64,000 bases of DNA from Zingiber officinale (taxonomy: Eukaryota; Streptophyta; Magnoliopsida; Zingiberales; Zingiberaceae): positions 23,367,173 to 23,431,172 of the forward strand of contig NC_055998.1 of assembly GCF_018446385.1 (NCBI RefSeq), given 5' to 3'. Of the stretch, positions 24,478 through 62,201 are shown piece after piece (position 1 is the first letter of the stretch; each line of letters starts with the position of its first letter). The notes under the pieces were generated by a model. It saw only the letters and a program-made list of their open reading frames with translations, searched no databases and was not told where the DNA came from. The position numbers and the translations under genes are program-made.

Positions 24478-25845
24478 TCACAGCCAATCCCTCTGCTGCA
24501 ATTTCAGAGGTAGATACACCTCAGAGAGATACTGGAATCCAAATGAACTTAGTGCTTGTATCTCAGCCTTTTGCCTTGTCTTGACCATTATCTCGAGCTC
24601 CTTGACCCACCCTTCATTCTTCTTAACGAAGTCCTCCTCCAACAAGTCTTTCCCAGCCTTCACGTCTTGATCTGTCATGGGGAGCCGACATTGCTCCGGC
24701 ACCTTGTATTTATCCAGATCGCTGGGCCGAACCCCCAGCCATTTGATATCAGGAGTCGTCAAGTTCGAGCTGTCGTAAGACATATTCTTTGACCCACACA
24801 TGTACACTGAGAGGATCTTGAGGCCGTAGGGATCACTGTCGACGAGTGCCAGAACCGGGAGCTTCAGTTCAGTCTTCATCCGTTTGAGGAAGAGCCTGGT
24901 AGCAACATCCGGCTGGCCTTTGGCGGTGACGATAATGCAGGGGAACCTGTTGTAGAAACGGTCCTCCGCGAGCCTCATAAATGCGGCGTCTTTCTCTACG
25001 AGAAGAATGAACAGGGCGTCGCTTTCGAGGTTGCCGACCCGGTCAATGTTTGGGGGAATGGCCTTGCCGCCGATGCCCATCTTAGTGCAGTCAATTCGGT
25101 CACCGTCGTCAGTGAAGACGAGGCGACCAACGACGACACCCTTCTCGGAGGCAACGACGTGGAGGGAGGATCGGGTGCATCCGAGCATGCAAGAGACGTC
25201 ATCAAGGACGGCATCGGACTGGGACTGGTCCTGGAAGAGCTTCACGTCGGTGTAGAAGAGGTCGCGCTTAGTGATGTGGATGTCTCGGCGGAGGACGGCG
25301 TAGACGAGGGAAAGCACGCGGGCTGTAACGGTGGCCTTGCGGACGGTGGAGAGACTAGCGAATGGGCGGGAGGATGATTTGTCGCGGAGCACGATGCGGT
25401 CGATCTCGGGGACGTAAAGCTGGTTGGAGGCAGCGCGGGAGGGCACGTCGAAGGAGAAGCCGCTCCCAGCAAGGATGGATCGGGCCACCGCGAGGACGGT
25501 GCGCTCGATGGCGACCTGCACGGAGGCAACGTCGCGATCGGAGACCTCGCGGCAGGCGGAAGAGAGGTTGAGGTCGGAAAGGGAGACGGCCTTGGAGGAG
25601 GAGACTTCAGATCGGGAAGCTTCGTACATCTCGCGAATGGAGGCGAGGATTTCGGCGTCGGACTTGAGATGTTTCCGCAGCCCTTGGGCGTGGGAGTCCT
25701 GCTTCCGGGGTTTCTTCGAGGTGGAACCGTCCGAAATAGAGGCGACCGGTGCGGCCGCCTCAGAGCGGCGCCGCTTCCTCTCAGACATCGAGCAGTTCGG
25801 CGGTGCCCTGGAGGAAGACAAGATGGACAGTCCAGTGTTTACCAA
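24478..25845 (-). CDS. TOP6A: DNA topoisomerase VI subunit A (SPO11-3/TOP6A)
   Basis: A single uninterrupted frame of 455 residues; the second Met (residue 20, codon starting 25788, [10 protein letters not shown]) gives 436 residues, closer to the usual length of about 427, and may be the true start. After a basic, Ser-rich N-terminus comes the winged-helix/CAP domain with the TKRDLFYTD motif and catalytic tyrosine at about Y198. The Toprim domain follows, with the acidic LLVEKDAAF (E284) and VDSDPYG (D336, D338). All catalytic residues are present. TOP6A pairs with the GHKL ATPase TOP6B to pass one duplex through another, and in plants it supports endoreduplication and cell growth. It is not the meiotic SPO11-1 or -2, which have many introns. 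The GC content falls from the 5' to the 3' end of the gene, as in many monocot genes. Confidence 0.95.
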
Positions 25846-26308
25846 CTTCTAGGGCTTCTCTCGTTTTTTTTTTTCATTAAAAAGGCCTTTGCTAATTTAG
25901 TAAATTAACTAATTAAATATGAATTTTAAATTTATTTTTTAAAATGATAATAGTAATATTAATACTAAGAGGCTATTTTTAAAAAATAAAAATAAAATAA
26001 AATATAGAGTAAAATAAATTTTCTCTAAATAGTTATAGATGCGTCCTCAAATTGAAGCTTGCAAGAAGCTGTTGCATTTGCTCCAAATGTTTGTTGTCGA
26101 GATCCCTTCCATATTGGCTTCTCCTATTTCCCTTCTTCCTCCACCGCTTCCCTTCTCTCCCTTGCTCCATCGCCGGAAAGAGCAGGAGCAGGGTTCCGAG
26201 GAGAAAAATAGGGGGCCGCTGGGTTGGCGGTTCCAACCTTTTGCATCATCAGGAGCAGGGTTCCGAGGAGTCCATCTCTGGTCACCGCCATCACCATGGG
26301 TACTGTGT
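25846..26308. other. Upstream of TOP6A and leading into the kinase pseudogene
   Basis: A T-run and AT-rich stretch (25866-26030) lies just upstream of TOP6A. 26040-26300 is pyrimidine-rich, with a direct repeat of AGGAGCAGGGTTCCGAGGAG at about 26184 and 26249. No gene is supported. Confidence 0.4.
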
Positions 26309-28068: not shown

Positions 28069-31000
28069 CTATTCATCTGATGGCTGAAGACCACCGGTAT
28101 CACCCTGAGATGTGGGGCTCTGCTGCTGTACGACGTCAGAAGGGCTTTTACCTTCATTGGTGTCTTCTGGTTTGCCCTTGAGCATAAAAATAAAGGATAT
28201 TAAGCAACAAAAAATTCGTTACTGGGTGATATAGTGTAAACAAAATCCATGAATTCAATCAAAAAAAGTTGAGCTACATACGGCGTGATGATGATACACA
28301 AGCAACAATGATTTTGTCTGTGTTGTTTCTAACCACCTAATGTATTAAATTTGCAAATGTTTCGAGTATGATTTTGTTGATGGGAAAGAGGACTTTAATA
28401 AAATTCATTGGGGACAGGCTAATGACTCGAAAAGCAAAGGTGGAGAAAGAAATCACTATTATCATGAATAATTCTTCTAAGAGAAATTTCGACTTGGAAA
28501 TTATAAGTTACCAAATCCTACCTTTTTCTTGTCAAGCCAGCCAAGTCCAAATGGTCTAGAGAGCAAGCCTGCTTTCCTGCTAGGCATATTATAATTTATA
28601 AGGCATAAATTGATTGATCAAACATGGAGAATATTAATTTAAACAGATGCAACCATAAAAGCTAAAGCTGCATCGAGAAAGAACTACAAGTAGAAAGGGG
28701 TCCCAACCAAACAATAAACATGAAGGATCAAAGTTGAAGATGGAAAAGAGAGGATAGGCTGAATAAGTTATGACCAGATAGTCAAATATAAGAAAACAAC
28801 AGGATTGCAAGGTTGTATTAAGGTACCTTGGCGAAGGCAACGGTTCTTGAGATTTAGCATGGCCTGACTGATACTGTATCGTTGCCTCCAACATTGACTC
28901 TGCCATCACAGCCCTTTTTTCCATATTTGCAAGTGCAACCATAATCTCTTCATGCTTTTCCTGTGTGTAAACAAAAGAAGCTAAGTAGCCGATATGAAAA
29001 AAGACAATAATGATAAAACAGAGTTTCATTTGCAGAAAAAGCCAATTACTGAGATTTCAAATGAAGTCCAAGCCCAAACTAGTATTCTAGTGCAGTTTGT
29101 AGAAGTTTGACAGGTAAAATGCAAAAGGACGCTTTTCTTTGAAACAAATATATAGCCAAATGAAAAATTCTTGATCGAAATAATTCGATAAGATTTTCAC
29201 TACATGATTTTTCATGAACCAAAGTGTTTCTAAACAAAAAAATTAATGACAACTTATATGAAGTTGTCCATCATCCATCAGCTTGGCTTTATTTGTTCCA
29301 TTCACAAGATTTTAATTCCTTAGTATTTGATTGTTGTCTATGACACCCGTTTGAGGATTTCCATGATTACAAGATTGATTTATCTTGATTGAAGCTCAAA
29401 CCTGCATATTACATATCACTTCAAGTATCAATGTCTACATAGATAAGGATGTTAAAGAAAATTGATTAAACACAAATAGCTAAACAACCTAAAAATTTGA
29501 GGTCGATTCCTCAGTTGTATTTAATTTTAAATGGTTGGTCTTGATATGACTATTTTCATCAAAAAGGCATCAAGACAAGAAACACATGAACTCTTATTCT
29601 TTGAGGCAGGGGTGGCACAGTTAAAAACTCTTCAAACCAAACTGAAATCCTTGGAATCTAGTTTTTAAGTTTGAAAACTATCAAGATCCAAACAAACCAA
29701 AATTTTAAATTTGATTTGGCATAGGCCAATCTACTGATGATTCTATAATTTTCTATTCCTATTCTCTATTTCATAAATGTTAAAAAAAAGCATGTCCCCA
29801 TCTATGGCTTCGATGAATATCTGACTACAAGGCATTGCTACAACTACAATAGCAATCAGAGCTATATTTGTCTTGACTAACATGTTACTGTACCTATAAA
29901 ACGTATTCTTAGGACTATTTTGTGTGTATCCAGTTTGAGTTAAAGTTGATTAGAGTCAGTAAAATAAAATCAAACTGAAACGTGTTTTTTTTCAGATCAA
30001 GAAATCAATATTTCAGTTGATTGATTTGGTTTGTATGATTTTTAGTTAAGAATGCGCACCCTTACTCTAAGGCATGCATATTAAGAGAGTCAGGTAATTG
30101 TATAGAAAATGACACTTCTTAGTTAAATTTAGAGAGAACAAAAACGTGTTTCATCAACAAAGTTCAGCTGCAAAGATTTTTCACCCACAGTATGATTGGC
30201 AAATAAAATCAATATTTTATGGTGAAATTATGCTAGAAGGGAAAAAATGAGCAGACTTTCAAATTCCATAAATGAGGGGAAAAGAAATAAACAGAAAACA
30301 AAATCTACAATCCATTTGAGTGCAACTGCAAACTCAGGAATATTAGAACCTGAAGCATGTGTGCTGTATATTTCTGAGAAGCAGCATCCTGCTCAGCTAA
30401 CATGCGAGCATCTTCTGTCACTTTTTGTTCCTGCTCCAGCCTCATTAATACCTTTGGAAGTGTCACAATTCTTAAAATAAGTATAACATTATGATATTGT
30501 CTATACATAAAGGGAAAACAATTATACCTGAAGCATGGCATTTTCTCCTTCTTGTTTCTCCACCAGAGCTTGCTGCAATGTCAATAATTCCTGTTCCAGC
30601 TGCTCAACCTAAAAAAGGAATATCCCTTTCCTGGTTTAGCACAAAGGATATATAAGCAGGACAACTAATCATCTAGTTATATTCCCAATTATTAAGCTAA
30701 TGAGTTTGCACAAAGCCACATCATTGGTAATACACAAGTTATTCATATCATTTTTAATTTATCAAATGGAGTGTCTCTGGTCTCTCATTATCCTCACACC
30801 TTTTCCAAGGAAACTATTGTGACTAAGAATGTGTTCCTACTATCTGGATTTTCTCAAATCTTATCACCTATCGGATTCCAAATTCAAATCTACATCTAGC
30901 TATTCATGACTAGTATTATAGTAATATTCCAAAAATTCATCAGAATTAGTGACAGACTACTACTAGGCAATTTCCTATATCTATTTTCTCTCAATTTGAT

Positions 31001-34000
31001 CCATAAAGCATGAGAAGTTGCCCTTCGGTCTTTTTTTTTTTTTGTGTGTATGCCCCCTGGGTTTCAAAAAAAGGGTGGGATATTTTTTTTTGAAGTATGC
31101 TATATTTTTAATCCTAGTGTAAGAGCAGCTCACACCATTGGGACTTTTCTCAGCCATTGGATCAGCATGTCCACCAGGAAAACTGCACAAGGTGATCTAA
31201 TATAATGCATTCTTGGTCGTTCAGTTTCACACTTGCAGTCTACTCCTGATTATTTTTCATCATTAGAAATGCCTTGTCCTGGAGCAGATGAACTGACAGT
31301 GGTAGCACCAATCCTGCCGTCATGCGGTGGCTTGGATCTGATGAACTGACAGTGGCATTGCCAATCCTTCAGTCATGCAGTAGCCTGGAGCTGATGAACT
31401 GACAGTGTACAGGATGTAAACGAGCCGAACTGAACTGAACTGAACTGAACTGAACTGAACTGAACTGAACTGAACTGAACTGAACTGAACTGAACTGAAC
31501 TGAACTGAACAGTATTAGGCTCGAGCTCGGCTCGTTTCAGTTATATTCGGGCTCGAGCTTGGCTCGAGCTCGGCTCGAGCTCGAATCGAGCTTTTATCAA
31601 CAAGGCTCGAGCTCGGTTCGTTTTAGAATTATCAAGCTCGCGAACAGTTCGAGCTCGGGTCGTTATTAGCTCGATTATCAAAGTTAACGAGCCTAACTCG
31701 TTAAGCGAGCTCAGGCTCGTTTTCAGGCTCGTTTAGAGCTCATTTTTTTTTGCTCATTTTAAAGTTCATTTTAAGGCTCATTTTTTTGGCTTGTTTTAGA
31801 GCTCCTTTTTTTTGGCTCGGTTAAGGCTTGTTTTAAGATTCGTTTTTTTGGCTGGCTAGCCTATAAACGAACATGTTCGCAAGCTCACGAGCCGAATATC
31901 CTTAAGCTCGAGCTTGGCTCGATAAAACTATCGAGCTCAAAATCGAGCTCGAGCTCGGCTCGATAAGATAACGAACGAACTCGAATGAGCTTTTTATCGA
32001 ATCGAGCTCCGAATAGCTCGCGAACCGTTTGGTTCATTTACATCCCTAAGTGTACTGCTAATCCTTCACTCATGCAGACCTGGTATACAATATTATCCAT
32101 GACATGTAGCTAGCTTCTAATCCTTCAATCATGAAGACCTGGTACACAATATTATCCATGACATGTTGCTAGCTTCTAATCCTTCAAGTATGCAGACCAA
32201 GTTACCATAAGAGTAAGTTATTTATTACCAAGTTTGCCATTTTAGGAATAGGTTATTGTTATTAAGTTTTTTAGTGAAAAGATCATGGTTAGGGCTTATG
32301 AAAGATGCTCCAATTTTTTTTTAGTTTAATAGTGTACTGATATCCTCGATCAATCTTATCTTTAAATAAATAGATCCAAGATGTCAAAAACTCGTGAAAA
32401 AACTCAATCCAACTTAACTATTCCTGCACCCTTTTCTTTTCATATTGTTGAAGTCACATTTTCTTGAATCCAATCTTAGTTCCATTTATATTTAAAAACA
32501 TCATTTATATTTAAAAATATTTAGATTTCCAGAAGTTCTGGGGATATATAATCAGTAGAACAATAAGAAATCAGAACGAGATATGATTTTGAAATAGAAT
32601 CTTTTGTAAATCAGAACAATTAAAAATAATAACAATTTGTTAAAAACAAATCTATTCCTTAATTCAGAATGAAAAAAATTGCAATAAGATTATCAAAACC
32701 TATGCCCAGGAATTGGTATTGGTTTAGAACAAGAGCTTCAAAGGTGTGATTAGTCACTGGTGATGCATCATTCTGAATTGTTCCAGAATAGTGAATAGTT
32801 TGGAAAAGAGAGAACTTGCATTGATATATTGAACAAAACCAACAAAAAGATATGAAATCTAAACAACGGCAGTTTCACTATTTAAAACAATGCTAACAGC
32901 CTATGATCCATTTCTATGGAAAGCCCCCAGGATAATTGGCATGTAGAAGTGGTCAGGTTCATCAAAATTGCTACTCATCCTATGGTGAGTACCCAGTTTG
33001 ATTGTCAAACTTTAACCAATATAAAGTTTGTTACAAACAAACACCTTCGTTTTTACAATAACTGTGACACTTTCAGTCCAAACTCTGGATAAAACCTTAA
33101 CAACATATGATATTCACTTAATTCTTGGACTCAACATTCTTGTCCAACCTGACCGTGCCCTTCTTCTAACCAAGGATTATGCCCTTTTTCTTTCTACTCC
33201 TATTGTATCCCCTATTGTCTCCGACTATTCGGCGTTGGTACAAAAGTATGGCGTTGCCCCTCAAAACATTCCTGCTCCATCAATACTACCTCCCTCTAAA
33301 GTAGTACCGCCCAAGGTACATAGTATCCCTCTAATGCAAGAAGCAAACTGCCATTGTAAAGACCAAACTATTTGTAGAAGCTCTTACCTAATATACAGAC
33401 AACTCATTTCCAATGACTAAGCTTTTCAAGAACTTCAGGAAAACAGCCGTTTTGATGACTTAATGGACGAATTACATGACAAAGATATCTTTAGATCTCT
33501 AGAACTACCAAAGGATTTTTAGCACCATCAACATTACTCCAGCTTATCTCCATGCAAATAAATTTAGACGATATAGTTCTAAACTAGAAAAGCTAAAAAT
33601 TATATGAGACAACCCCCACCAAATATTGGACCCAGACTTACCCATAAAAGCACAAGACTTGCAATAGACAAACTAGGAGATAGAAGAATGTAAAACTCAC
33701 ATTCAACAACTCATAAAACATAGAGTTATTCAACGCTCTACCTCCAGACATAGGAGTCCAACTTTCATAGTAAACAAGGGAGCTAAACAAAAGAGAGAGC
33801 AATCCCGAATGATATTCAATTATAAGAGAATGAAAATTATCACAAAGATGGATATAAAATTTCAAACAAAGATCAGTTATTGAATAAAATACAAGACTCA
33901 AAGTGATTCCAAGTTCGACATGAAATCTGGATTCTGGCAAGTCAAAATGCATCCAGACTATGTAGAATGGACTGCTTTCTCTTGTCTCGAAGGATATTTT

Positions 34001-37000
34001 GAATGACTAGTAATGTCGTTTGGTTTAAAAGTAGCACCACAAATCTTCTAAAGAAAAATAGATAATATGTTTAAAAATGTAGCCAGCTGTACATGCGTAT
34101 ATATAGATGATGTATTAGTATTCTCTAAAATAAAAGAACATTATGCACATCTGCATCTTATCTTTAACTTATTTGAAACCTACGGATTAATTATCTCCCG
34201 AAGCAAAATGGAACTGGCTGTAGAGCATATAGAATTCCTAGGAGTAGAAATCGGACAAGGGAAAATATCTTTACAACCACATATTACTACCGAAATACTA
34301 AATTTTCCAGGTAAGATGGAGGATACGAAAATCCTTAGATCTTTTCTAAGTCTTTTAAATTATGCTAGACATTATCTAAAGGATAAGGAAAAATCAAGGG
34401 ACCTTTGTATAATAAAACATCACAAAGAGGACAAAAATATTGCAACCAACAAGATTTAGATCTGGTCAGACAAATAAAAGACATGGTAAAAAACTACTTG
34501 AATTAACACTACCACTTGATTCAGATTATATGATTATCAAACAGATGGCTATGAAACAAGATGGGAAGGAGTCCTCTACAGAAAATCCAATAAATATGAT
34601 CCTAAAAATATAAAAACACTATGCAGATATACTTTAGGCAAATACAAAGGAAAAAGTCCGCTAACTTCTTTGGACTATGAAATTTTAGCTGTAATTTACT
34701 ATCTTGATGCTTTCAGACTCTTTATTTGTAGCAAACAAGAGATCACAAAACAGATTGTGAAGGTATAGTAAAATATAGCCAACAAACAAAAATGATTAAA
34801 ATTTAGAAATGTCATTATTAACAAAGGTTTTACCATCTAATGAGAACACATTAAGGGAAGTAACAATTCCTTAGCAGATACATTATCTCAATTATTATCA
34901 TAAACTTTGAGATAGTTCTTGCAGACATGCATAAACAAAAGAAAGTCAACACTTTTACAATGAACACCATGCGATTCAGAAATCAAGAACTTTAACAATT
35001 TACTCATTATGAGGAACAAGTTTATTTTACAGAGAAAAATTAGATTACATACAAACATGTTTTCTTGACAACATCTGGGACATTCCAACAATTCCTAGAG
35101 GTACTAAATACAAGATAGTCATTTATTTATGGCTAATTACTTCCGGACAATAATACTAAAACCAGCCGAAAAGAAGTTCTCATGTTATGTAGTTTACTCT
35201 GGTTTTCAAGTAGGAGTATACTATGAAGGGGAAGAAGTTACCATAGCTATTCTGGTTGTGCAAATCCTTCATTCCGAGGTTTCTCTTCATTGGAAGATGT
35301 TTTTGCTTCAGCCAAATCAGTTATTGGGCCTAATTTCTTTATTAGTAACCCTACTAAAAACGGGAGGAAAAATACCTATGGAAACAGAACAACCAGAGAA
35401 GGCCGAAGAAATAGCTAAAAAGATATGCATAGGCTATTACAACTTCTCCAAACAATACTGAACCTCGGTATATAGGCCCAATTATTTAACGTTAGGGCAA
35501 TTAAGAACCAACGCTGTAGCCACATCCACACAGAAGCAATTTTGTTGGGCCTTCCCAACATTATACCAGATGATATATCTATATATATGAGACGCTTGCA
35601 AAAGACTACTTTTCAAAACTTTACTGACTTATGTGAAGCTTTAAAGATTTTACACCAACAGAAAGTCCCAAAAGGGATGACAATCATTTATGAAAGAGAA
35701 AGTAGCCCCAAGTTTAAATGCCACAAACGCAACAAAACTTGTAAAACTTCAAAAAAATATGGGTGTCGATACAACCTCTTATACGCCTTAAGAAAAGTAC
35801 ATATAAACATGGACGCATATAAACCACCAATAATTAAAGGAAGAGCAATTGCTCCGTTCCTCTTAATGGACTATGGCTTACTCTACAAACAATGGGTACA
35901 TGATCCCTCTAAGATTTTCCAAAGAAACTTGGATAAATCATCTCTTTAGCTCTCGAAGAAGAAGATACATTTGTCATCTGTACTTTAGAAAGTTCACCTC
36001 CAAAATGAGTCGGCTTAAAAGTAGAGTCTGCTAGGCACCTCAATAAAATTGACATTGACGAACTCAACGGTCGACAACTGGAGTTTGATGACTACACTTC
36101 TGATTTTGACATAGAAGCTTTCCCCTCTTTATCAGATCAAGTAAAACATTGGAGAGTTTCAGTTCAAGGAGCTAAGTGGTCATGGGATAAACTAGAAGAC
36201 CTAAATGAGTACCTCTTAGCCTAAGAAACATACACAGAGAAAATACACTGGCCTAGAGACATAGGTACCAGATTCTTTCCTTTCTCTCTTACAACTCAAC
36301 ATTCAACCTTACTATAGCACTACCAAGGGAAGGCTGACAGATGGGCTACTAAACGACTAGCAAGTTCTGTTCTATCCTCTAGAGAATATCGAGCATCCTT
36401 AGTTAGGTCGGAACAACATACAACCCCGGAATAATATGCAACTGAAGATACATCTACAGCCAGACATAAAGCCCAAAGTTCAACCCAAAGATCTTTAGCC
36501 CAATTCCAGCACGCCCAAGGAACGAATTCTACTCCATCATTGGATTTTGTCAACGAGCAAAACCTAGCCAACATGATGGAATTATAGGGACCCACTCTTT
36601 GTCCTTTTCCACTACCTTTACAGCTACACTATAGTGGAATCGTCCTTCTCATCCTCAAAGAATCTTTTCCTCCTTTACCTAGGCCACGCTATGCACTCAT
36701 GGGAGGAATCTGTTCCTTCTCCACTAAGGAACCTCTCCCTCTTCTATAAAAACCCTCTCCAACCCTTGCCCAGTGGCATAGCATATTTCTTCCGTTCCAT
36801 TATTTTTCCTTCCTCAATCTTTATCTAAGTACCCTAGTGTGAACAATAACTATACTATCTAAGGTCATAGGGTCAGTCCCTCACACACCAACAAAGAAGT
36901 CAGCGTTGCAAGTATATTTTTCTTTACAAGTGAGGCTCATTGGAAGGAAAAATAATACATAACCTACTCTATTCAGTTCACAATTATTGTTTAATTCCCT

Positions 37001-40000
37001 GTCCATAATTAGTGTTTAATTTACTGTTCACAATTACTGTTAATTTATTATTCATAATTACTATTCAGAATTACTGTTCACAATTTTAATTAGTATTCAC
37101 AAATACTATTCATAATTTTACTCACTTGTAGAGAAAAATATACCTGCAACCCCGACTTCTCTGTTAGTGTGTGAGGAACTAGCCCTCTGACCTTAGATAG
37201 TCTGCACAAATTTTATACAAGAATTCTCATACAATTACGATTCGTGCTAAGGTTAGATAAGGACTGAGAAAAGAAAAATAATGGAACGGAAGAAATATGC
37301 ATATGCCACTCTTTTTTTTTATTTAATGCTCATAGCAACGATATTTACATACACAAACAATATAAATATAGAAACTACCAACAAACCAAAGACGAACAAG
37401 ACTGACAGAAATAGACAAAGATTGCTTACATGCATGAACGAGAGGAAAGAGTACTTACGCTTGTTTTCTTTTTTTTTTGGGGGGGTGGGGAGCCTGCTGA
37501 GCAAGGGTTGGAGAGGGTTTTTATAAGAAGACGAGGATGTTCCTTAGTGGAGAAGGAACAAATTCCTCCCGTGAGTGCATAGCGTGGCCTGGGTAAAGGA
37601 GGAAAAGGTTCTTTGAGGATGAGAAGGAATAGCGGTAAAGTAGAGAAGGACAATTCCACTAAGAGTAGTGGAGTTGTAAAGATAGTGGAAAGGGACAGAG
37701 TGGGTCCCTATAATTCCATCATGTTGGCTGGGTTTTGCTTGCTGATAGAAACCAATGATAGAATAGAATTCGTTCCTTCGGCGTGTCCTGGAACTGGGCT
37801 GAACTTTGAGCTTCATGTCTGTATCTTGAGCTGCATATGGTTCTTGGGTTGTATGTTGTTGCGACCTGACTAAGGATGCTCGATATGCTCTGGAGGATAG
37901 AACAGAACTTGCCAGTCATTTCGTGGCCCATCTGTCAGCCTTCCCTTGGTAGTGTTGTAGTAAGGTTAAATGTTATGTTGTAAAAAAGAAAGGAAAGAAT
38001 CTAATACCCATGCCAGTATATTTTCTCTGTGTATGTTTCTCCGACTAGGAGGTACTCATTTGGATCTTCTAGTTTATCCCATGACCACTTAGCTCCTTGA
38101 ACCGAAGCTCTCAAATGTTTTAGTTGATCAGATAAAAAGGAGAAAGCTTCTCATTCTTTGTCAAAATCAGAAGCATAGTCATCAAACTCGGGTTGTCAGC
38201 CATTGAGTTTGCCAATGTCAATTTTAATGAGGTGCCGAGCAAGCTCTATTTTCATTTGGATCTTCTAGTTTATCCCATGACCACTTAGCTCCTTGAACCG
38301 AAGCTCTCAAATGTTTTAGTTGATCTGATAAAGAGGAGAAAGCTTCTCATTCTATGTCAAAATTAGAAGCATAGTCATCAAACTCCGGTTGTCAGCCATT
38401 GAGTTTGCCAATGTCAATTTTAATGAGGTGTCAAGCAAGCTCTATTTTTAAGCCGACCCATTCTGGAGGTGAACTTTCTAAAGTATAGATGACAAATGTC
38501 TCTTTTTCGTCTAGAGCTAAAGAAATGATTTGTCCAAGTTTCTTTGGAAAGTCTTGGGGGAAGTCTGGATCATGTACGTAGAGCAAGTCATAGTCCATTA
38601 AGAGGAACTAAATAATTACTCTTCCTTTAATTATTGGTGTAAGAGGTTGCATTGACAGCCATATGTTTCTGAAGTTTCACAAGTTTTGTTGCGTTTGTGG
38701 CATTTAAGCTTGGGGTTGCTTTCTCCTTCATAAATGATTGTCATCCCTTTTGGGATCTTCTGATGGTGTAAAATCTTTAAAGCTTCACATAATTCAACAA
38801 AGTTTTGAAAATTAAAGACTGGAATAGAAATATCATCTGGAATAGTGTTGGGAAGACCCAACAAAATTGCTTCGCCTTTGTGTGGATGTGGCTACAGCGT
38901 TGGTTCTTAATTGCCCAAACGTTAAATAATTCATTTTCCAATGAGTAGAAGCCTAAAATGAAAGATTTGCACAACCTTGAATAGCTATAGTAACTTCTTC
39001 CCAATCATAGTATACTCCTACTTGAGAACCAAAGTAAACTACATAACAGGAGAACTTCTTTCCGGTTGATTTTAGTATTGTTGTCTAAAAGTAATTAGTC
39101 ATAGCATTTATTATGACTATCTTGTATTTAGTACCTCTAAAAATTGTTGGAATGTTTCAGATGTTGTCAAGAAGGCATGACTGTATGTGATCTAATTTTT
39201 CTCTTGCTGTAAAATGAAATTGTTCTTCATAACGAGTAAATTGTTGAAGTTCTTGATTTTCGAATTGCATGTTCATTGTAAAAGTGTTAACTTTCTTTTG
39301 TTTATCCATGTCTACAAGAAGTATCTCAAAGTTTATTATAATAATCGAGATAATGTATCTGCTAAGGAATTGTTACTTCCCTTAATGTGTTCCCATTGGA
39401 TGGTTAAACCTTTATTAATAATGGTGTCTGTAAATTCTAATCATCTTTTTGAACTAAGACCTTTTGTTTGTTAGCTATATTTTACTATAGATTCACAATA
39501 TGTTTTGTGATCTCTTGTTTGCTGCAAATAAAGAGTTTGAAAGTATCAAAACAGTAAATTACAGTTAAAATTTCATAGTCCAAAGAAGTTAGGCGACCTT
39601 TTTCTTTGTATTGGCCTGAAGTATACCTGCACAGTACTTCTATATTTTTAAGATCATATTTATCAGATTTTCTGTAGAGGACTCCTTCCCATCCTGTTTT
39701 ACAACCATCTGTTTCAATAATCAGATAATCTAAATCAAGAGGTAGTGTTAATTCAGGTAGTTTTCTTACCATTTCTTGTATTTATCTGACCATATCTAAA
39801 TCTTGTTGGTTACAATATTGTTATCCTATTTGTGATGTTTTATTATACAAAAGTCCAATAATTTTTCCTATATACTTTAGATATAGTCTAGCATAATTTA
39901 AAAGATCTAAAAATTTTCGTATCCTCCATCTTATCATGAAAGTTTAGTATTTAGGTAGTAATATGTGGTTGTAAAGACATTTTCCTTTGTCCGTTTTTGC

Positions 40001-43000
40001 TCCTAGGAATTCTATATTCTTTACAACCAGTTTCATTTTGCTTCGGGAAATAATTAATTCGTGGGTTTCAAATAAGTTAAAGATAAGATGCAGATGCGCA
40101 TAATGTTCTTTTATTTTGGAGAATACTAATACATCATCTATATATACGCATGTACAACGGGATACATTTTTAAATATATTATCCATTTTTCTTTAGAAGA
40201 TTTGTGGTGCTACTTTTAAACCAAACAACATTACTAGCCATTCAAAATATCCTTCGAGACAAAAGAAAGTAGTCCATTCTACAGAGTCTGGATGTATTTT
40301 GATTTGCCAGAATCCAGATTTCATGTCGAACTTGGAATCACTTTGAGTCTTGTATTTTATTCAATAACTGATCCTTGTTTGAAATTTTATATCATCTTCT
40401 TGATAATTCATTAAGTCTCTTATAATTGAATATCATTCCGGATTGCCCTTTCTTTTGTTTAGCTCCCTTGTTTACTATGAAAGTTGGACTCCTATGTCTG
40501 GAGGTAGAGCATTGAATAGCTCTATGTTTTAGGAGTTGTTGAATGTGAGTTTTACATTCTTCTATTTCTCAGTTTGTCTATTGCAAGTCTTGTCCTTTTA
40601 TGGGTAAGTCTGGATTTATTATTGATAAGTGACAGTATATCTTATCTCTACGCCAATATTTGGTGGGGTTGTCTCCTATAATTTCTAGTTTTTCTAGTTT
40701 AGAAACTATATCGTCTAAATTTATTTGCGTTTAGATAAGCTGGAGTAATGTTGTCGGTGCTAAAAAATCCTTTGGTAGTTCTAGAGAACTAAAGAGATAT
40801 TTGCCATGCAATTCATTCATTAAGTCATCAAAAAGGTTATTTTCCTAAAGTTCTTGAAAAGCTAAGTCATTGGAAATGGGTTGTCTGTATATTAGGCAAG
40901 AGCTTCTACAAATAGTTTGGTCTTTATAATGGCAGTTTGCTTCCTGGGTTAAAGGGGGACTATGTACCTTAGGCGGTACTACTTTAGATGGAGGTAGTAC
41001 TAATAGAGTCAGAATATTTTAAGGGACAACGTCATGCTTTTGTACCGACGCCGAATAGTCAGATACAATAGGAGTAGAAAGAAAAAGGGTATAATCCTTG
41101 GTGAGAAGAAGGGCACGGTCAGGTTGGATAAGAATGTTGAGTCCAAGAATTAAGCGGATATTGGAGTGTTGTAAAGGTTTTATCCAGAGTTTGGATAACG
41201 ACAAGGGTGGACCGAAAGTGTCACCATTATTGTAAAAATGAAGGTGTATGTTTGTAACAAACTCTGTATTGGTTAAAGTTTGACCATCAAACTGGATACT
41301 CACCATAGGATGAGTAATAGTTTTGATGAATGCAAGAAGTAAAAGATTGCTAAAAGGGTCTTCTCATCTATTGTGGAATTAGTAGCTCCACTATCCAAAA
41401 AGACATGGAGAGTAAATTCATGTCCATGGATGTTGGCAAGGCATCGAACATGAATGTCCATGGTACGACCAGTATTACAAACACTAGGTGTTTTAATAAA
41501 AATCATGCCTAAGTCCTGTTGAGGTTCAGAGATGACTATCTCTTTTCCTTTATCAGTAGGCTTAATTATCTGGGCCATTAGTCTAAGTAATTTTACTTCA
41601 TCCTCTAGGTTGTTGAGTTTCTAAAACTAAAAGTCTTGTTTCAAGAAATAAGTTTCTTGAGGTCCTAGGGTTATAGGCATTAATATGGAAATACCGTATC
41701 CAGCCAAAGTGTGCAACATTGTTGTCTGCGCACGGTACAGCTTCCTCGTTTGTCGATAGAAGGATAGTAACCACAGATAAAACAAAGAACATTAGTAGTT
41801 CCTGATTTTAAGGTCTATTGGTGTGGACATTCGGAGTATGTATCCAAGCTATGTGATAATACCTATCGGAGTATTATGTCAACTGGTTGATAGATATCTT
41901 CCCATTGTTCCTCTAAGTCATTTAACTCGTCTTGTAATATATATGTAGGGAAACCATATTTGTCAATTTGTATTGGAGGTGGTAGAAAAGAATTGATTAG
42001 TGTATAATCTGAGGAAGAAGATACTGCTTCTCGATCGCGGATACTATTGAGTATATTGAGGATGTGTCTGAGACATCTAATTCGATTTCAACTAAATCCA
42101 AGTTTGTGCAATTTATTAGCTGGGGTTCTAAAGGTTTTTCTTTGTAAGACAAGCCAAAGAAAGATGTCCTAGCTCGTGACAGGTGAAATATGTAATAAAT
42201 ATGTAATAGTGTTTGCATACGTTTTAAATTTATATTTCTTTACATGTTTATCTTTATTTAAGTTAGGCTTCTTTTCCTTACTTTTTCGAACAAAATATGT
42301 TTTCTTTAGTTTTTCCTGGTGTTGTGATTGTATAATAGGTCTAGGAGGTTGTCGTCCTCTTCTTTTGTATTGTTTATGTTAATAGGCTCCATATTGTTGT
42401 GGAGTATAAATCTGATTACAAAAATCGCAGTGTTGGTTTTTAAGTTGTTTTTGTATTTGTATGTACATTTTTTTAGTACTATTATAATGTGTTGTATTCT
42501 TATCCATATGTTGTCATATTAAGGGAGGACTTTCATATCTGCCCATGTTTTATGGATTTCTTTGCCTAAGTCACCTGGTAATTGACTAAATAATCTTTCC
42601 CCTAATTCAAGGTTGCAGTAATTTCCAAAGATTGTTGGCTAAAAAGTCATTACAAATTGACTTGATCCAATTCCAACTAAAGAGTTGTAATTGTTCTAAG
42701 TTTCGCATTACCTCTCGCTGTCTTATGTCTAAGCATGTGTTAGCATCTTTGGCCGTTAATTGGCAGTGTACAATATAACAAAAATTTACGATATTATTTC
42801 CTTGGGTTGCTATTCTAGTAATGTCTTCTGGAAACTTTGTTTATATGATTCTCATACTGCTCTAGCTACACCCCCAAGTAATTTTCTCCTATACACATCA
42901 TAGCTTCGCCAGATTTAATATCAAGTTCATGTTTGGCTTAGTAGTCCCTTTGGACTAAAACAATCCATTATTCTAAATATGTCATACATTTGAGGATCAT

Positions 43001-45308
43001 CACATTCTGCTATATTTAAGAGTACAGAGTTTTTTTCAAAATAAGTTTTGTGGTTATCTTTTTCCTATTGTTCTAAGTAATGGATTGTTACTGGTGTATG
43101 GAGCAATTCCTGTTCTAGGGGATGTCCTTGGCCATAGTATCTTGTTCATATAGAACTTTCAGGATAACGTGTGGTTATTAGAGGTACGTTTAAGGATATA
43201 TTTCCGGATGGTCTAGATGTTCCTGTTGATTCTGCTGGGTTCATAAGATTTACTTGTGGGAATTGTTTCCTAGCAATGATGTTTTGATCATCATCAAAAT
43301 AGAGTTCCCAGTCCTGTTCTAGTCTATGTAATTGTTTTTTATTTTGTTCAAATTTCAACGGTTCTATATTTGTATAGGATGCTATTTCTACTGGGCTATA
43401 CATATATTCGTCTAAGTCATCATAAAAGCCTGGGAATTCTTGGTCCTGGTTTTCTTCAGGTAGGCCTTCAATGTTCATTAAGTTAAAGTTTTCTTCCTCT
43501 TCTTCTTTTTCATTCTGAGAAGTAAATAGTCATTAATTCTGACTATCATTTTCCCATGTCTATTTTTGTACAAAATCGATTCTTTTGGTCTTAATATTTG
43601 TTGTTGTGTGTTGAGGTCTAAATTTAAACTCTGATCTAGTCCTGCTAGGGTTTGAGAAGAAAAATCCTTTAGTTCCAAAAAGGATATACCTTTTGATGTT
43701 ACCGTTTTAATGACAAAGTTTATTTGGACTTTATAACTATTATTAATTTATGTCATTGTTTTTCCCCAAAAGACCATATCAGTCAAGATGTTATCTTTTA
43801 GAAAATTTCCATAACCTTTGGCTTGGACATTTATTTTAATATGTTTAATAAAATCTTCAATAGTTATATTAGAATTTGGATAAAAGTATGTAATTCCAAG
43901 GTTGTTATTCATGTCTACTTTTAGAAGTCCAATGATTGCCTGCTCTATTTCTGAGAAACGAGAATCCTAGAGGACTAGGAACACTTTAGCTCCTATTCTT
44001 TTTCTTGTTAGTCCTCTAAGTTCTATTACTAGTAATCCTAGGTGGATATAGTTATGTTGTCTTTGTGAGAGTGCTCTTGCAGATTTGACTCTCATGAGGG
44101 CTAAGTATTCTTCTCTTCCATCTGGTAAGTGTAGTGGTTGTGTCCTATGATGTCTATAAAGTGCTGTTGAAAAGTTTAGTAATCCTTGATTATAAATGTA
44201 TCTTGAATTTAATGTTGTTAATTGTCTGTCTGAGAAAGTAACCATATTACTTTCGACATCTATTAAGTCTTCTAGTTGATATGTATTTGTTGAAGTACTA
44301 TTTCTTCCATGTGTTATGATAATATCTAACCAGGAAGTAGTATTTGTTTCAGTTTGTCCTCTTATTGTTTGTGGGAGGCCTAAAAAAGGTTCAGTTTTGG
44401 TTCTTGTTTGACTCATTATATGTTAAAATTTTATATTTTTTTGGTTGTTTTCTAGGGATTATAGCTCCGGTAGAGAGTTTACTTAAATCTTTTGATATAG
44501 TATTAATACTTTAGTATAAATCTGTAGTCTTAGGTGTGTTTTTTATTTGAGTTTCTAGTTGTAGTAGTTTGTTATCTATTATTGTAAGTCTATGATGGAG
44601 AGATGTGAGTAAGGCTAATATGGTGTTATTTTGTTGGATGAGAACTTGATCTCCTGTTCCTACAACTTTAAGTTTACAGTAGCCTGTTTCTGTTGGTTTA
44701 GCAAATTGTTTGGAAAAGTCTAAAGATTCTTCATAGTAATTATTTTCAAAGTGTAATTTGTTCATTTATATTTAACTTCCTCAAAGGTTTGTTGTCAGTT
44801 ATCTAGTCCATTTATGAGTTGAGCTTTGTTGGCTATGAGTAACTCTTTAAGTTGTACTAGTGTGTCTCTTGGTTCCAAACGATTTAGTTTAGTGTGCCTT
44901 AAATGTTTTTTTAAGTAAGGAGTCTTGAGATTCTTTTAAAAAATCTAAATTTTGTCTAATACTGTTTATCTATTGATTTTGTTATTTTACTTGTTCAGTT
45001 ATTATTTCAAGGTGTAACTATTATTGTCTTACTTGCTCTTGAAGTTTTAAGAGTAAATTTTTAATAATGTCTAATTAAAGATAAAAATTGTCTACTAGAG
45101 GATATTTTTGTACGAGTTGGAGTCTGTTAGACATAAAAAGTCCTTACAAATTTTTAGAATTTGATACCAAAATTGTGAATAGAAATTATCAACCGTAATT
45201 AAAATCGTGAAAAGTAATTGTGAAATTCAACAGTAAACATAGGCGACTAAGTGCACGGGGCGCTCAGAAGTGATCCCGCATGGGGCCTCACTCAAGATAT
45301 CAAAATCG

Positions 45309-45348
<40 letters not shown>

Positions 45349-48300
45349 CATTACTACAATAACATAAAGCAATATTAAAATTATTCATACACATGACAAG
45401 AGTTCGCCATCATCCTCATTTAAGGTGGACTGATAATAATGACAAAAGTTAACCATCATCTTCATTATCATCAAATCATCCCAACTATTTGGGAGCGGAT
45501 GAGAAGATTTTAATTAAAATTTAAGTTTGTTTATCTCTATATTTTTTATTTTTAAAAAAGATATTTTTATATTTTTTTATTTTTAAAATATTTATATTAT
45601 ATATTTTTTTAATTAATATATTTTATATTTAAAAAATATCAAAATCATATCAGCACGGTACGATATAGTATCGAAATCGTATTATTTTGGTCATAGACCG
45701 AAACTCCGATACGATTCGTGATTTTAAACCATGATCATTTTTAATAACTCACATCTATCTTAACATTCTCACTATAAAATAAACTTCGTGCAAAAGATTT
45801 TTCCTAAGAGCCTAATACTCTGATGCATAAAGTATGCATATAAAGAATGCCAGATCATAACAATCTTTAAAATTATCCTTCTTTTAGCTTAAGAGGATCA
45901 CAAGAATCTTTCAAGAATCCAGGACCTCCTCTATATTTCAACCATAGTTTATAAAATCATGATTCTACGCAGGATTAATTTGGAGTTAGGATCAGATCGA
46001 ATCGGTCAGAATCGGACCGTAGAATCGTACGATCCTACTAAAAACCTTTGAAATTTTATGGTACATGATTAATATTTAGAAAAAAAATCTAAAAAGGTCA
46101 TTTACATATAAATAGATTAATAATTTTACATATACATACAAGTGTTGACACTCAACATCACATTTAACATTATTACATATATAAATCTAAATTAATTAGT
46201 AATTTAACTATCATTCTAGTATAGTAACACGCAATAATATTTATGTTTTTCATAGCACAAAATTAAGAGTATAAAATTGTTATTAACAGACAAACAATAA
46301 TCACATTAACCTCAATAATATTCCCTTAGTTCACAAGATAACTTGGTTTAAGGTCAACAAAGTAGCTGACATAGTGGAAATTGTTGAAACATTTGATTCG
46401 AACACGAACGTCGGAAACAATCTTTTAAAGACTTGTTGATTCTGCAAAATACTAAATAATAGACACCCAAAAAACTCATCGTTTTAAGAAAAGAAATGAC
46501 GAAATATTGTTAATTAAAAACTAACTCAAAAACAACTAAATAGATATTTAAATAGTCTCAAAACACTAATCCTAACTCTACGAAAGATGAAAAGGGCAGC
46601 CCGGTGCACAAAACTCCCGTCATGTGGGATCCCGAGGAAGAATCCATTGTATGCTTACGCTGCTTTTTGCAAAAGGCTCTACGAAAGATGAAAATAACCT
46701 AATTTATAAAATAGTACAAAAGATAATAAAAATAAAATAAAAATCTTCTGAGCCTCCGAAAAGACTTTAAACGAAGTTTTTTGAGTTTAAAACTAAGAAG
46801 TTAGGGGTTTTACTCGATAATCAATTGTAGATCTCTAAACATGTTTCAATTTGATATATTATAGGTTCCGTGGTTTAACCTGAATCAAAAGTTATAATCT
46901 CTCAAAGCTTCTACCGATCCTACTCCGATCCTATTCCGATCCTGATCCAATCCTATCGATCCTTCTACGATCCTGCTGTGATTCCACTACAAAAAATGAT
47001 TCTACACGATCTGGGATCGATTCGGTGTTTTGGATTGTAGGATCTAGGATCGCGATTTTGCAAACCATGATTTCAACCATCCTTTTTTTATTATATTAAT
47101 TATATTACCATCAATATCCCTGTATTATTGTGTAATACATCTAAGATAACTAAAACTCTTCAAGGAAATTCCTGTCCATTTATTTTAACTATTTCATCAA
47201 TTCTTTTCTAGTTACCAAAACTAAAATTTCAAAAGTTGAAAAAGGAAATTTGACCTAGAAGTTAAGAGCATTCTCTAATAATATTAAAAATTCTTAGAAA
47301 AATGATATACTTCAGTGAATGTCAAGCTTTTTAATTTGTGTGCTATATTCAGTCAAGAATGTCTGGATCAAGATTCTACCAAGAAATGATGAAGGAACAT
47401 CAGGCATCAGTTTGTTTTCTGAGTTTCCAACAAAATTTTTAGCCTACTTCAGATCTAGTTTTTATGCTAATTGAGATCTGGATCATCTGGACCAAATCAA
47501 GCCCTATAATCATAAATCTCAAGATACATATACAAATGTTAATAATGATGGTAGTATTCTAGAACAAGCAACTACAGAAACTAAAGAATCCAAACCTGAT
47601 CAAAACTAACAGATTATCTATGCGCGCATCATGATTCAAAGGCTGATAGAGTATATTTCAATTTTTCAACAACCTGAATTTCGTGCTTTCATTTGGTCCC
47701 TAGTATATTTTGTTTTATGTTAAGACAATAAATCAAATTGTATGTAACTTATTTTCAACTCAAAAAAGGTGGCTATAAATTTGTATTTAAAGATTGCAAG
47801 TTTCTTTGGAGTAACTATGCCAAAGTACATTCATTTTTTAATTCCAATATCTTCAAAAGGTTTGTGTTACTAATTGCTATACTAGAAGGTTATCAGAAAA
47901 GGGATCAACCAGGAACTAAATGGCAGACATAAACCATTAACATACCTAGGCAACTGAACTTATCAAATATCCTTTAAATTACCTGGGCGCTTAAAAGACG
48001 TCTATTGTCCTGTTTGACCATCTCCATCAATGCTGTCTCCAACTCCTCAGCTCTAACAAAATAGATCAGAAAAAATACAAAAAAGTCAGAGTTACTAATG
48101 AAAACTTATTCAACTTTTCCTCAGCCACAAGAGACACATTAGCATACATAAATAGGAGAACGTTAGTAGAAATTTCAATCTTGAAAATCTACAAAGGAAA
48201 AGAGACAACTTATCAGTCTAAGAATTCTGTAAACATGTGTTACAAAGCTAGTCATGTTAAAGTGTTAGTGGCAACAAATAGTCGTCATCATTAAGTTGTG

Positions 48301-51300
48301 CTTGTCCCAACTATTTTGAGTCAACTTCATAGATATTCTACTCCCATTAAGCCCTATACAATGTTATATCATCAATAATCAGCTAAAATGATTGTTATTC
48401 CATTCACTGGAGTTTCCTTGAAGGGGAACCTTGGCGCAGCTGTGCGATTTGGTGGTCACGGCTTTGAGTCACAGAAAAAACTCTTGCAATAAAGAGTAAA
48501 GCTAAGTACAATAGATCTAATATGGTCGGGCCCTACCCTGGACCCCACATTGGCGGAAGCTTGGTGTACTAAGCTACTCTTTTTTTAACTAGAATTCCGT
48601 TGGTCTCCTACCCCTTACACCTTCCATTATCATATCTGCTAGACTAATTTTTCGTTATGCGTTGCTTCCTAACATCTAAATACTCTGATCCAAGAATATT
48701 GTTGGCAATACAATGATCATTTCCTTTATTGCATCTCTTGTTAATATTTTGCTTTGATCCAAAAGAGGTAACAAAGCTAAATAACTAAAACAAAGCATGA
48801 ATTAAATAATTTGCAGCACCCTTGCCCTCTCTCCTGACAACAAAGACAAGTGCACGCAACAAATGAATTTTAAGGAATGGTACACAAACAAAGCCACACA
48901 ATCATGTGATTCTAATGGATGTAAACAGATAGAAGAAATGCAAATGTGCACTAACACAAAGATGAATCAAGAGGTCACTTGCAAACTGGAGAGCAGGGTG
49001 AAGTATGTACACACACCTAAGAGCAGCTGATCTTTTCTCAACCAGCAATCTGCATAACTCAACCTTCAACCATTTCACCTATACAAGAGATTCTTCTCGT
49101 ATTAATACTACAATAAAACTAAGAAATATAACAAATATAAGAAAGACAATAGTTGTTCCTATATGATCAGAGTTACAACTGTGCAATCAACTTGGTACTT
49201 ATTTTATGACTTCATCTCCAGTGAACTAGCCTTGGATAGGAGTCATCATTTAGGATGGGTGGATGCCTTTGTCCTTTGTCAATTGTTCCTTGGAACTCTA
49301 TGTTCTCTAGCTCCTCATAAATGATTGTCAAAATAATTATTTAACATTCTTTTAGAAATAATAAAAAATTCCTGCATTACTTTTTTACTGGAGCATTTAA
49401 ATATTCTGTGGTGCCAGAATTGGCTGGTTAAATAGAGTAAGCGCTTGAACGCTAAGCAAAAGATTAAACATAGGTTGGTTAGGCAGAAAGATTACCTGTT
49501 CTTTGAGATCAGGCACAGAATCTGACTCGCCATCAACTGCTAAGCTACTTTTGTATCCCTCAATTGACTCATTGATTTGAAGTTCACCTGATCCAACCTT
49601 GGAGTCAGTTTCTGCATGTAATGACTCTGGACCACGCTTAAAACTATACAATTTAGATGCAAGGCCCTGAGAGTTCTTCCAAACACGAAGGCCTCTGGAC
49701 CTTTCCTCCATGACAGCTAAGACTTCAGGTCTATGTTTTTTCCTCAAGTCTTCCAATTTCATCTCACTGACAGCTTGGAAACCCATGCAAGCTGTCAAGA
49801 CAAGTTGGCTGCTGTCAAAGGTAGAACCAGCAAGGGATTGCAACAAAGTAACTGCATCTCCAGCATCTCTTGTCATGACCAGTGCAGGACCTAGACATCA
49901 TTGCGTGGGGGGCATCTTAAGAGACTCAAGCATTGCACAAGTATAACTTGATTGAGATAAATAGATTATTCAAGAACACAAACCAAATGTCATTTACCCA
50001 GTACCATATAACTCCATCAATGCAAGAGCTGAGTGGAATAGCATAACGCGATTTCCATAAAAAAGAAGCACGTCCCAAATACGCAGCACTGAGATGGACA
50101 AAGACAAAGAATAAAGAGACGACATTTGCATCTTTTACGGATATGATTAATCAGAAATTGGCAAGTGTAAACCAATGAACAGGAAATTGTGGTGATTTAT
50201 GACAAAATTTTGAGATAGAGCTGAGGTACAAGGAAAGATACGAGTATATGACTAAATATTATCGGATGTGCAATAGATGAGGAGATGCCAAAATATCTAT
50301 CTTAGAGTCCATGTAAGAATACGAGAATCTAGCACCTCAATAAGGAGGTTCTATAAATAATAAAGAAAAGTAAAAAAAACAAACAGTATGATTGTACGAA
50401 CAAGATGAAGTTTCAAGAAAAATAAACTAAAATTGAGTGGCAATTATCTTTAATCGAATGTAGTGAATCTAAAGAACTAACCAGTTTCCCAAGGAAGCAT
50501 ATTTACAAAAATTGAAAGGAACCAAGGTCCAGTAACCCATGCAATCTGAACGCCCAGGTAGTCCAGGTGATTTACTGCCAACAGGAATGTATTATATCCG
50601 GTAAGTCATCAGATAACGCAATAGAATATCTCCACAAAAGAAACAGACCCAATTTTGGAAACCTTTCCCGAATCAGATCCTCAAGAACTAGTTGATCCAC
50701 CTGATGGAGATTAACAAATCAAAAAGTTAACATGTGTGCTGGTCATCACCAAACATCCATCAGTGAATGAAATGAAGATGATACTGAAAGTGGTGATTGA
50801 ACATGGATCAAAACCTGAGATTCAATCATTTCCTCAGAATAGTAACCATCAAAGTAGTCATCAATAATACCAACCAAAGTCCTACAAAATACCAATAATT
50901 TACATGACTAAATAAAATGCAGTAATTCGAGAATTTTGGTAAAGCAATTATTATTCTTGTTCAACCTACCAAAATGCATTCTCTTCAGGCATCAGCAGTA
51001 GCAACAAGCCTGCAAAGAAGTTCATGGCCTGGAGGCATGAAATCCCAGAGGTAAGAAGCAAAATTTGATTAAATATTGATCCTTGGTTCATAATCAGAGA
51101 ACAATGCCTACAATTTCAAAGCAGAATAGAAGTTCTACAAATAGATACACGAACACCCACACCAAAGTATTCAACAAAACATATGTTCCACCCCATATAT
51201 TTTTGATTTTTCTGTGTGGATGTTTCTCGTTATTGAATTCACTTTACTGAGGCATGAAAACCTTAGTTTAAATCATAAATCACCAATTATAGACATGGAT

Positions 51301-56436: not shown

Positions 56437-57944
56437 TGTTAGGACCAAAAGTAGCTAGAGGGGGGGTGAATAGCTCGTCGCGTTCGCTCGGTGCTCGGCG
56501 TTGCTTGTTTCTTCAAGAATATGCAGCGGAAAATACAGAAACAAATACAACCACGCTAACACTAGGATTTTACTTGGTATCCACCTCCAAAGGAGGTGAC
56601 TAATCCAAGGATCCACACCACGCACGCACCCTCCACTATGAAACACTCCTTTTCGGTAACTACCGAGGGCGGAGAAGCCCTACAAGACTCTCGATACAAG
56701 AAGAAGGAAAGGGAAACAAAATACAAGCACAAAGCTTATAATGAATGCAGAAAACCCTAACCCTAGCTTCTCTTCTTGCCTTTGATCCGCCTCTTGACTC
56801 GGAGAGCTTCCAAGAACCTTCAAGAACTGGCGATCACGAGCTTTGAGAGTGCTGTGGAGGAGCTGGCGAAGATCTGAGATGAAACGGTGAAGTTCTTACC
56901 GCAGCCATCGAACGCCTGCAGCTATAAACGACGCCAACGGTCGGATCCCGATCGATTCGAATGTTCCCAATCGATCGGGGAGGCTTTGGATCGATCCACG
57001 GATCGATCCGGGCGCTCGCTCCAAACACGCTGGATCGATCCACGGATCGATCCGGCGCTATCGCGCGGCGACCGTCCCAATCGATCCACCGATCGATTGG
57101 GACATCTGATCGATCAAGGATCGATCCGGAAGCTCTGTTGGGGCAGTGCGGATCGATCCAGCGACGATCGAGCTGAATCGATCAGCGATCGATCCGGGGA
57201 TCGATCAGCGATCGATCCAGAATATCGCCCCGGATCGATCCAGCACTTGGTTTTGTCCAAAACCAAGTCCTAAACCTCCCAAACCAATATCCGGTCAACC
57301 TTGACTGTTGGTATGTCATGCCCAGCATCTAGTCACTTCCTTGACCGCTAGGACTCCCTTACCAAGTGTCCGGTCAATCCCTTTGACCCACTTGGACTTT
57401 TCTCTGTGCCAAGTATCCGGTCAATCCTTTGACCTACTTGTCTTTCTTTCATGCCAAGTATCCATCAATCCTTTGACCTACTTGGACTTCCCAACACCGG
57501 ATGTCCGATCATCCTTGATCCATCTGGATTTTCCCTTGCCTGGCTCACTCACCGGGACTTTCACCTAGCTTCACTCACTAGGGTTTTCCATCCGCCTAGC
57601 TTCACTCACTAGGACTTTCACTGGCTTCACTCAGGGATTTCCATCGCCTAGCTTCACTCACTAGGACTTTCACCGGCTTCACTCACCGGATTTCCATCCG
57701 CCTAGCTTCACTCACTAGGACTTCATACCTGGCTTCACTCACGGGACTTTCCTGACTGGCTTCACTCACCGGGACTTTCATTTTGCCTAACATCCCAGTT
57801 AGGACTTCCCAATCAAGTATCCAGTCAACCTTGACCTACTTGACTCTTCTTCAATCAATATCTTATTGTCAAACATCTAAACCCAAACCAAGACTCAGCT
57901 TGGTTACCCAGGTCAACCTTGACCTGAGGGATATTGCACCAACA
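56437..57944 (-). repeat. Element D 3' LTR
   Basis: It starts TGTTAGGACCAAAAGTAGCT and ends ATTGCACCAACA, 1508 bp. It holds the ATCGAT dyad array (56941-57243) and the CTTCACTCAC minisatellite (57530-57790). Confidence 0.9.
56941..57243. repeat. Array of ATCGAT-centred dyads in the D 3' LTR
   Basis: About fifteen GATCGATC-type dyads, many paired as GGATCGATCCACGGATCGAT, plus CCAATCGATCCACCGATCGA pairs. Confidence 0.9.
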
Positions 57945-57958
57945 ATCTCCCCCTTTTT
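57945..57958 (-). other. Polypurine tract of element D
   Basis: The minus-strand reading is AAAAAGGGGGAGAT, identical in form to that of element A. Confidence 0.78.
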
Positions 57959-62082: not shown

Positions 62083-62201
62083 CTTGAAGTTGAGCTTCTT
62101 GAATTCTTTGACTTTGATGAATTTGCTCCAACTTCTTCACCCTCTAGCTTTTCTTGATATGTTTGCCCCTTCCGGCGGTGATTCCGGTGAAGAGCAACCT
62201 C

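Follow-up and report, generated by a model that had tools for sequence, protein, structure and literature searches.

Known caulimovirid loci and the ginger window

Caulimovirid arrays in plant genomes are often tandem or rearranged (PMC10377300). In tomato, rearranged caulimovirid inverted repeats called TSAs give rise to 22-nucleotide (nt) small interfering RNAs (siRNAs) that degrade matching transcripts (Valli et al. 2023, via PMC10377300), and tomato pararetroviruses have been linked to 22-nt RNAs that depend on the Dicer-like (DCL) enzyme DCL2 (PMC9124383). DCL2-dependent 22-nt siRNAs are also known from soybean inverted repeats derived from caulimovirids and transposable elements (Jia et al. 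2020, via PMC10377300). Of the florendovirus loci in Vitis vinifera, 9% lie within introns (Geering et al. 2014, PMC4241990); florendoviruses have TA-repeat flanks and an open reading frame (ORF) without recognised relatives past the RNase H, and their small RNAs followed no consistent pattern (PMC4241990). One caulimovirid co-transcript is described for Zingiber officinale, with an SH3-domain gene (PMC8346255). Here we describe an inverted repeat of two caulimovirid-like copies within an intron of another ginger gene, encoding a TBC/RabGAP protein, in a 64,000-nt stretch of contig NC_055998.1 (positions 23,367,173 to 23,431,172; the window). An earlier note had proposed that this repeat is an antiviral small-RNA locus driven by the host promoter. 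Our analysis points rather to an ancient, dead caulimovirid pair that was probably captured jointly and is presumably transcribed in a passive way, possibly with incidental siRNAs, and that bears no sign of maintaining selection. We found no literature joining ginger, small RNA sequencing and pararetroviruses, and an intronic caulimovirid inverted repeat was not named in the titles or abstract openings among the matches listed, from which we do not claim that such loci are unpublished.

Structure of the inverted repeat

The arms of the repeat, located at 32958-36934 on the plus strand and 41330-37121 on the minus strand, were delimited concordantly by self-BLAST and a repeat finder. A chance origin is excluded because the three longest inverted pieces had BLAST E values of 0.0, and the earlier description of two caulimovirid copies placed tail to tail in a host intron is borne out. 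A global MAFFT alignment gave 89.5% identity (of 3672 aligned columns, 3287 match and 385 do not), corresponding to a Kimura two-parameter (K2P) divergence of 0.114. There were 22 gaps in the left arm and 15 in the right, indicating independent insertions and deletions. The two longest uninterrupted matches were 70 and 60 nt, and 38 such matches were at least 21 nt, totalling 1121 nt. The spacer measured 186 nt, in agreement with the size of less than 0.5 kb given in the note. Arms of about 4 kb reaching to 41.33 kb had also been described there; this holds for the inverted part, whereas the right copy itself does not end there but continues as single-copy sequence for about 4 kb, up to about 45.2-45.3 kb, and this part is not in the hairpin. 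The features of the locus are as follows, with the evidence in brackets.

32958-36934, plus strand: left arm, from the protease region to reverse transcriptase (RT), RNase H region, downstream ORF, TATA box and start of the leader (self-BLAST, MAFFT)
36745-36751, plus strand: TATA box of the left copy, facing the loop (motif scan)
36935-37120, plus strand: spacer (loop) of AT-rich tandem repeats that are similar to sequence from the outer (leader) end of the right copy (local alignment)
37121-41330, minus strand: right arm, the counterpart in the second copy, sense to the host gene (self-BLAST, MAFFT, Pfam)
37311-37496, minus strand: stretch of about 186 nt without a counterpart in the left copy, directly past the TATA box of the right copy and ending in AATAAA and a run of A (self-BLAST)
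37519-37525, minus strand: TATA box of the right copy, in the equivalent place and facing the loop (motif scan)
38056-38447, minus strand: tandem duplication of 196 nt, 96%, in the right arm only (repeat finder)
41331-45290, minus strand: single-copy remainder of the right copy, with leader, capsid and what we take from its position to be the movement region, for which no protein family matched; the upper end is approximate (Caulimovir_coat_dom, ORF listing, end sequence)
45162-45169, minus strand: TGGTATCA, possible core of a Met-tRNA primer-binding site and its sole copy in the intron (motif count)
45312-45346, plus strand: (TA)17.5 microsatellite close to the right copy's outer end (repeat finder)
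30528-30608, minus strand: host exon 14, directly past the intron (exon joining, protein alignment)
30609-47982, minus strand: host intron 13 of 17, 17,374 nt (exon joining, GT-AG)
47983-48052, minus strand: host exon 13, directly ahead of the intron (exon joining, protein alignment)
28069-53406, minus strand: TBC/RabGAP coding span, exons 1 to 18 (RabGAP-TBC domain, match to a ginger protein)

The two copies differ around the loop. The spacer aligned to the outer leader end of the right copy with a score of 39.5, as compared to 20.0 for the reverse complement and 32.5 for the best of 300 shuffles, although the shuffles preserve single bases only and simple repeats may inflate the score of 39.5. 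Most of the spacer is probably the remainder of the left copy's leader. The segment at 37311-37496 lacks a counterpart in the left copy, which may have lost it as part of its leader; alternatively, the right copy may have gained a short insert.

The host gene reads as intact

The TBC/RabGAP gene is located on the minus strand. A script joined 17 exons, from 52790 to 28069, into an in-frame reading, and exon 1 was placed at 53406-53360 (minus strand), its splice to exon 2 being verified by eye. The introns are of the GT-AG type in 16 of 17 cases and GC-AG in one. A profile search identified the RabGAP-TBC domain in the encoded protein (E 6.5e-52). Relatives were sought by scoring 8000 candidates, which yielded 1584 matches; among the 120 listed, the top match was a Zingiber officinale protein (P0013, 99%), followed by one from Curcuma longa (P0014, 94%). 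The protein could be aligned end to end with proteins from ginger, Curcuma, Musa and Canna, and the junction of exons 13 and 14 was free of gaps in all five rows of the alignment, so the claim that the exons on both sides of the virus are intact and in phase stands. Overall, the gene reads as intact and conserved, and this conservation, together with its presence in annotated databases, suggests that it is expressed. The identity given to the gene in the earlier note was correct but the intron is number 13 rather than 12, counted along the minus strand.

The whole viral element lies inside this intron. The arms begin 6652 nt past the donor and stop 2349 nt ahead of the acceptor, with the left arm antisense to the gene. 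The intron also contains tandem arrays at 31269-32198, including (GAACT)17 at 31427-31510 and repeats of 53 and 59 nt. A plus-strand location of the host gene was rejected, as a scan of that strand gave no TBC exon and just a weak kinase fragment; this weak match to a protein kinase is located at about 26.3 kb (plus strand), close to the 3' end of the TBC gene.

Content and class of the element

Both viral copies are broken, with no stop-to-stop ORF over the element being longer than 157 amino acids (aa). One piece of each copy matched RVT_1 above the Pfam cut-off (left, E 1.4e-09 at 34052-34456; right, E 2.1e-09). The other regions of the left arm were assigned by alignment to the right copy, the protease region of which corresponds to the start of the left copy. 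Matches to RT_RNaseH_2 (E 1.2e-05), Peptidase_A3B (E 5.3e-05) and Caulimovir_coat_dom (E 4.9e-05) were obtained in the right copy only, all below the Pfam cut-off, and the remaining weak Pfam matches, also below the cut-off, did not fit viral proteins. Of the three regions that the arms had been said to cover, RT was recovered in both, RNase H only as the match below the cut-off in the right copy, and the downstream ORF had no match above the cut-off.

For the downstream-ORF piece at 35476-35946, there was no Pfam match above the cut-off, the matches in PDB were weak (best E 0.029) and none of the 13 candidate proteins was confirmed as a relative. For the RT piece, on the other hand, 12 of 16 candidates scored as relatives, one of which was named Dendrobium catenatum; the best-scoring relative was 63% identical over 99% of the piece, and the highest identity was 69% over 57%. 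Taken by its sequence, the element is caulimovirid-like.

The motif TGGTATCA, which we take to be a Met-tRNA primer-binding motif, occurs four times in the window, where chance would give 2.35 copies. Just the position of the copy at 45162-45169, at the end where such a site would be expected, therefore supports it as a primer-binding site, and the motif was reduced from proof to weak support after the window count.

Pairing capacity and direction of transcription

Cofolding was performed for 8 of 10 arm tiles, two being dropped for long gaps. Each of the eight bound its true partner with -230 to -289 kcal/mol and a wrong partner with only -62 to -90 kcal/mol, while perfectly complementary tiles would have reached -302 to -371 kcal/mol. 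Counting both Watson-Crick and G-U pairs in a minus-strand transcript, 3437 of the 3672 columns (93.6%) can pair. By alignment and cofolding alike, the arms form an inverted repeat that is able to pair, as in loci of the TSA type. Mismatched hairpins can stay effective in plants and may escape self-silencing (PMC9263138), so an arm identity of 89.5% is no bar to a hairpin effect.

The TATA boxes of the two copies are paired and face inward across the loop, and hence neither would yield a transcript of both arms. Transcription from either box should exit its own copy into the other, with overlap just around the loop. A transcript of both arms would need an outside promoter, for which the host gene is the evident candidate besides possible other promoters in the intron, and this layout is the strongest point in favour of a hairpin driven by the host. 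Additional TATA-like words without a partner are located at 37361 (plus strand) and 37217 (minus strand). AATAAA words on the minus strand at 37323, in the right arm by the loop, and at 37049, in the spacer, could terminate transcripts early; the evidence is weak either way because the AT-rich intron contains 25 such words, 18 of them ahead of the loop. The proposal that a single pre-mRNA carries sense and antisense arms capable of pairing is supported by the cofolding and the TATA layout, while its second half, an antiviral function, is not supported, the divergence described below looking neutral.

Divergence between the arms

For this analysis, we used 25 gap-free blocks of at least 45 nt, which contain 359 of the 385 differences. 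These were distributed as 122:118:119 over the three codon positions (p 0.96). Restricting the count to the 22 blocks that start before 36600 gave 111:104:108, and restricting it to the 13 blocks with one clearly best frame gave 86:80:72 (p 0.54). For third positions, these counts disfavour an excess of 1.5 to 1 (p 0.001 or less) and exclude one of 2 to 1, at p about 1e-9 for all blocks and 7e-9 with strict frames. Given this even spread over codon positions, the two arms were most likely close to identical at the outset and have since decayed free of coding constraint. Two lineages that had diverged as viruses were not favoured, since an excess at third positions would be expected of them. 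The RT part of the arms (33700-34200 with 40040-40550) is the most alike, at about 94%.

The arms are more divergent than a pair of long terminal repeats (LTRs) at 2567-4397 and 9944-11809 around Copia-type ORFs in the same window (K2P 0.114 versus 0.035). At plant substitution rates of some 4.5e-9 to 1.3e-8 per site per year, the divergence of the arms would correspond, very roughly, to 4 to 13 million years.

Other features of the window

A copy of TGGTATCA at 9935-9942 (minus strand) adjoins the second Copia-type LTR. A single stop-to-stop ORF of 456 aa with SPO11/TOP6A domains is located at 24481-25848 (minus strand). A Copia-type gag ORF of 478 aa at 60703-62136 (minus strand) lies between direct repeats at 56437-58048 and 62216-63716 that are 86% alike.

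Origin and rival explanations

The reading that we consider the most probable by a clear measure is that of a relic pair. Intron 13 of the TBC/RabGAP gene would have taken up, in one event, two near-identical molecules of viral DNA or two fragments of a single concatemer, joined tail to tail. This probably happened during the repair of a DNA break near a TA microsatellite, after which the arms drifted to their present identity. Host transcription presumably runs through the intron, and the RNA is computed to pair into a hairpin, imperfect and with arms of roughly 4 kb, which in the cell would form before or during removal of the intron. DCL enzymes could plausibly process such RNA, and siRNAs matching sister viral copies may result as a by-product.

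Several observations weigh against this account. A TA repeat is lacking at the outer end on the left, and the nearness of the TA repeat to the outer right end is uncalibrated against chance. The codon-position test was run without a positive control on known viral pairs. Wobble-type differences, 150 versus 119 (p 0.067, not significant), lean toward RNA pairing. Identity also varies from 81.8% to 94.4% between 17 windows along the arms (p 0.0027), an unevenness that plain drift does not predict and that could reflect patchy gene conversion or poor alignment near gaps.

Among the alternatives, the one that survives best is possible but not favoured and overlaps with the relic pair: the intronic element may be packed and methylated through RNA-directed DNA methylation by 24-nt RNAs from many copies, in which case the inverted layout is irrelevant. 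Observed/expected CpG ratios are low in all viral parts, at 0.42 and 0.46 for the two arms and 0.36 for the single-copy remainder, which would fit such silencing, but the host gene at 48000-52800 is equally low (0.36) and CpG therefore does not discriminate. An arm-specific methylation footprint was rejected, the single-copy part and the host gene being as CpG-poor as the arms.

Somewhat more doubtful, and concerning the origin only, is that a single copy integrated and was then duplicated locally in inverted orientation, giving the repeat. Near-identical starting arms would be given equally well by duplication. By the loop, however, each copy has sequence absent from the other, the left its leader-like spacer and the right its extra 186 nt, and joint capture of two molecules is favoured for this reason, though not decisively, as later deletions could mimic the pattern.

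We consider it unlikely that the locus is an antiviral one, in which the host promoter drives an intron hairpin that is diced into trans-acting siRNAs of 21-22 nt against related virus or sister endogenous copies and is useful enough to have been kept. Both arms do lie within a single transcription unit and pair strongly, including the 38 long uninterrupted matches; the inward viral TATA boxes leave the full hairpin to an outer promoter, such as that of the host; and there is precedent in caulimovirid inverted repeats whose 22-nt siRNAs degrade matching transcripts (PMC10377300). However, the arms diverged neutrally, selection for RNA pairing was rejected because the wobble excess was not significant, and there was no CpG loss specific to the arms. 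Three scans of viral contigs with three pieces of the element gave 2, 14 and 7 pattern matches, none of which was confirmed as a relative. In addition, the petuvirus and florendovirus clusters discussed in PMC10377300, to which the ginger element may or may not belong, are without a reported episomal form there. A stricter version is still less probable: that only the host promoter makes the intron-borne viral hairpin, that siRNA output is tied to expression of the Rab regulator, and that silencing of sister copies in ginger depends on it.

It is very improbable that a pair of LTR retrotransposons was mistaken for caulimovirids. RT and RNase H domains and a primer-binding motif are common to both kinds of element, and two of the three other copies of TGGTATCA sit 1 to 2 nt from Copia-type repeats. 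On the other side, no integrase was detected in the 16 ORF pieces of the element that were scanned (ten and six), where a decayed trace could escape a piecewise scan, self-BLAST revealed no LTR-like terminal direct repeats around the element, and the traces of capsid and protease point to caulimovirids, albeit below the cut-off. An assembly artefact in the form of a palindromic chimera, inverted neighbours being a known type of artefact, deserves the least credence, since it would yield near-identical arms and here 10.5% of the aligned positions differ, with many separate indels and unlike outer ends.

Comparison with known systems

The inverted repeat is real and well placed; it is most likely a passive relic and would repay small-RNA mapping. 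If siRNAs are made, the locus would be nature's analogue of the hairpin constructs that are placed in introns for RNA interference, with antiviral RNA tied to host expression; if not, it would be a useful negative control, namely an extended inverted repeat of viral origin inside an apparently intact gene.

The ginger element resembles florendoviruses in its intronic position, as in Vitis, in a TA repeat by one end and in an unmatched ORF past the RNase H; these resemblances do not prove the genus, and absent matches for the downstream ORF do not equal a match to florendovirus ORF2. Intronic inverted pairs, in contrast, are not described in the portions of PMC4241990 seen. In common with the soybean repeats, it is a long inverted repeat with caulimovirid sequence, and in common with the tomato TSAs, it is an inverted endogenous caulimovirid repeat able to form hairpin RNA. 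The systems differ in that siRNAs are reported for soybean, and small RNAs with target degradation for tomato, whereas for the ginger locus such RNAs are hypothetical. The ginger repeat further differs from the TSAs by its place inside the intron of a gene; its viral TATA boxes point inward. Parts of the idea are already published, and the ginger locus combines these in one place.

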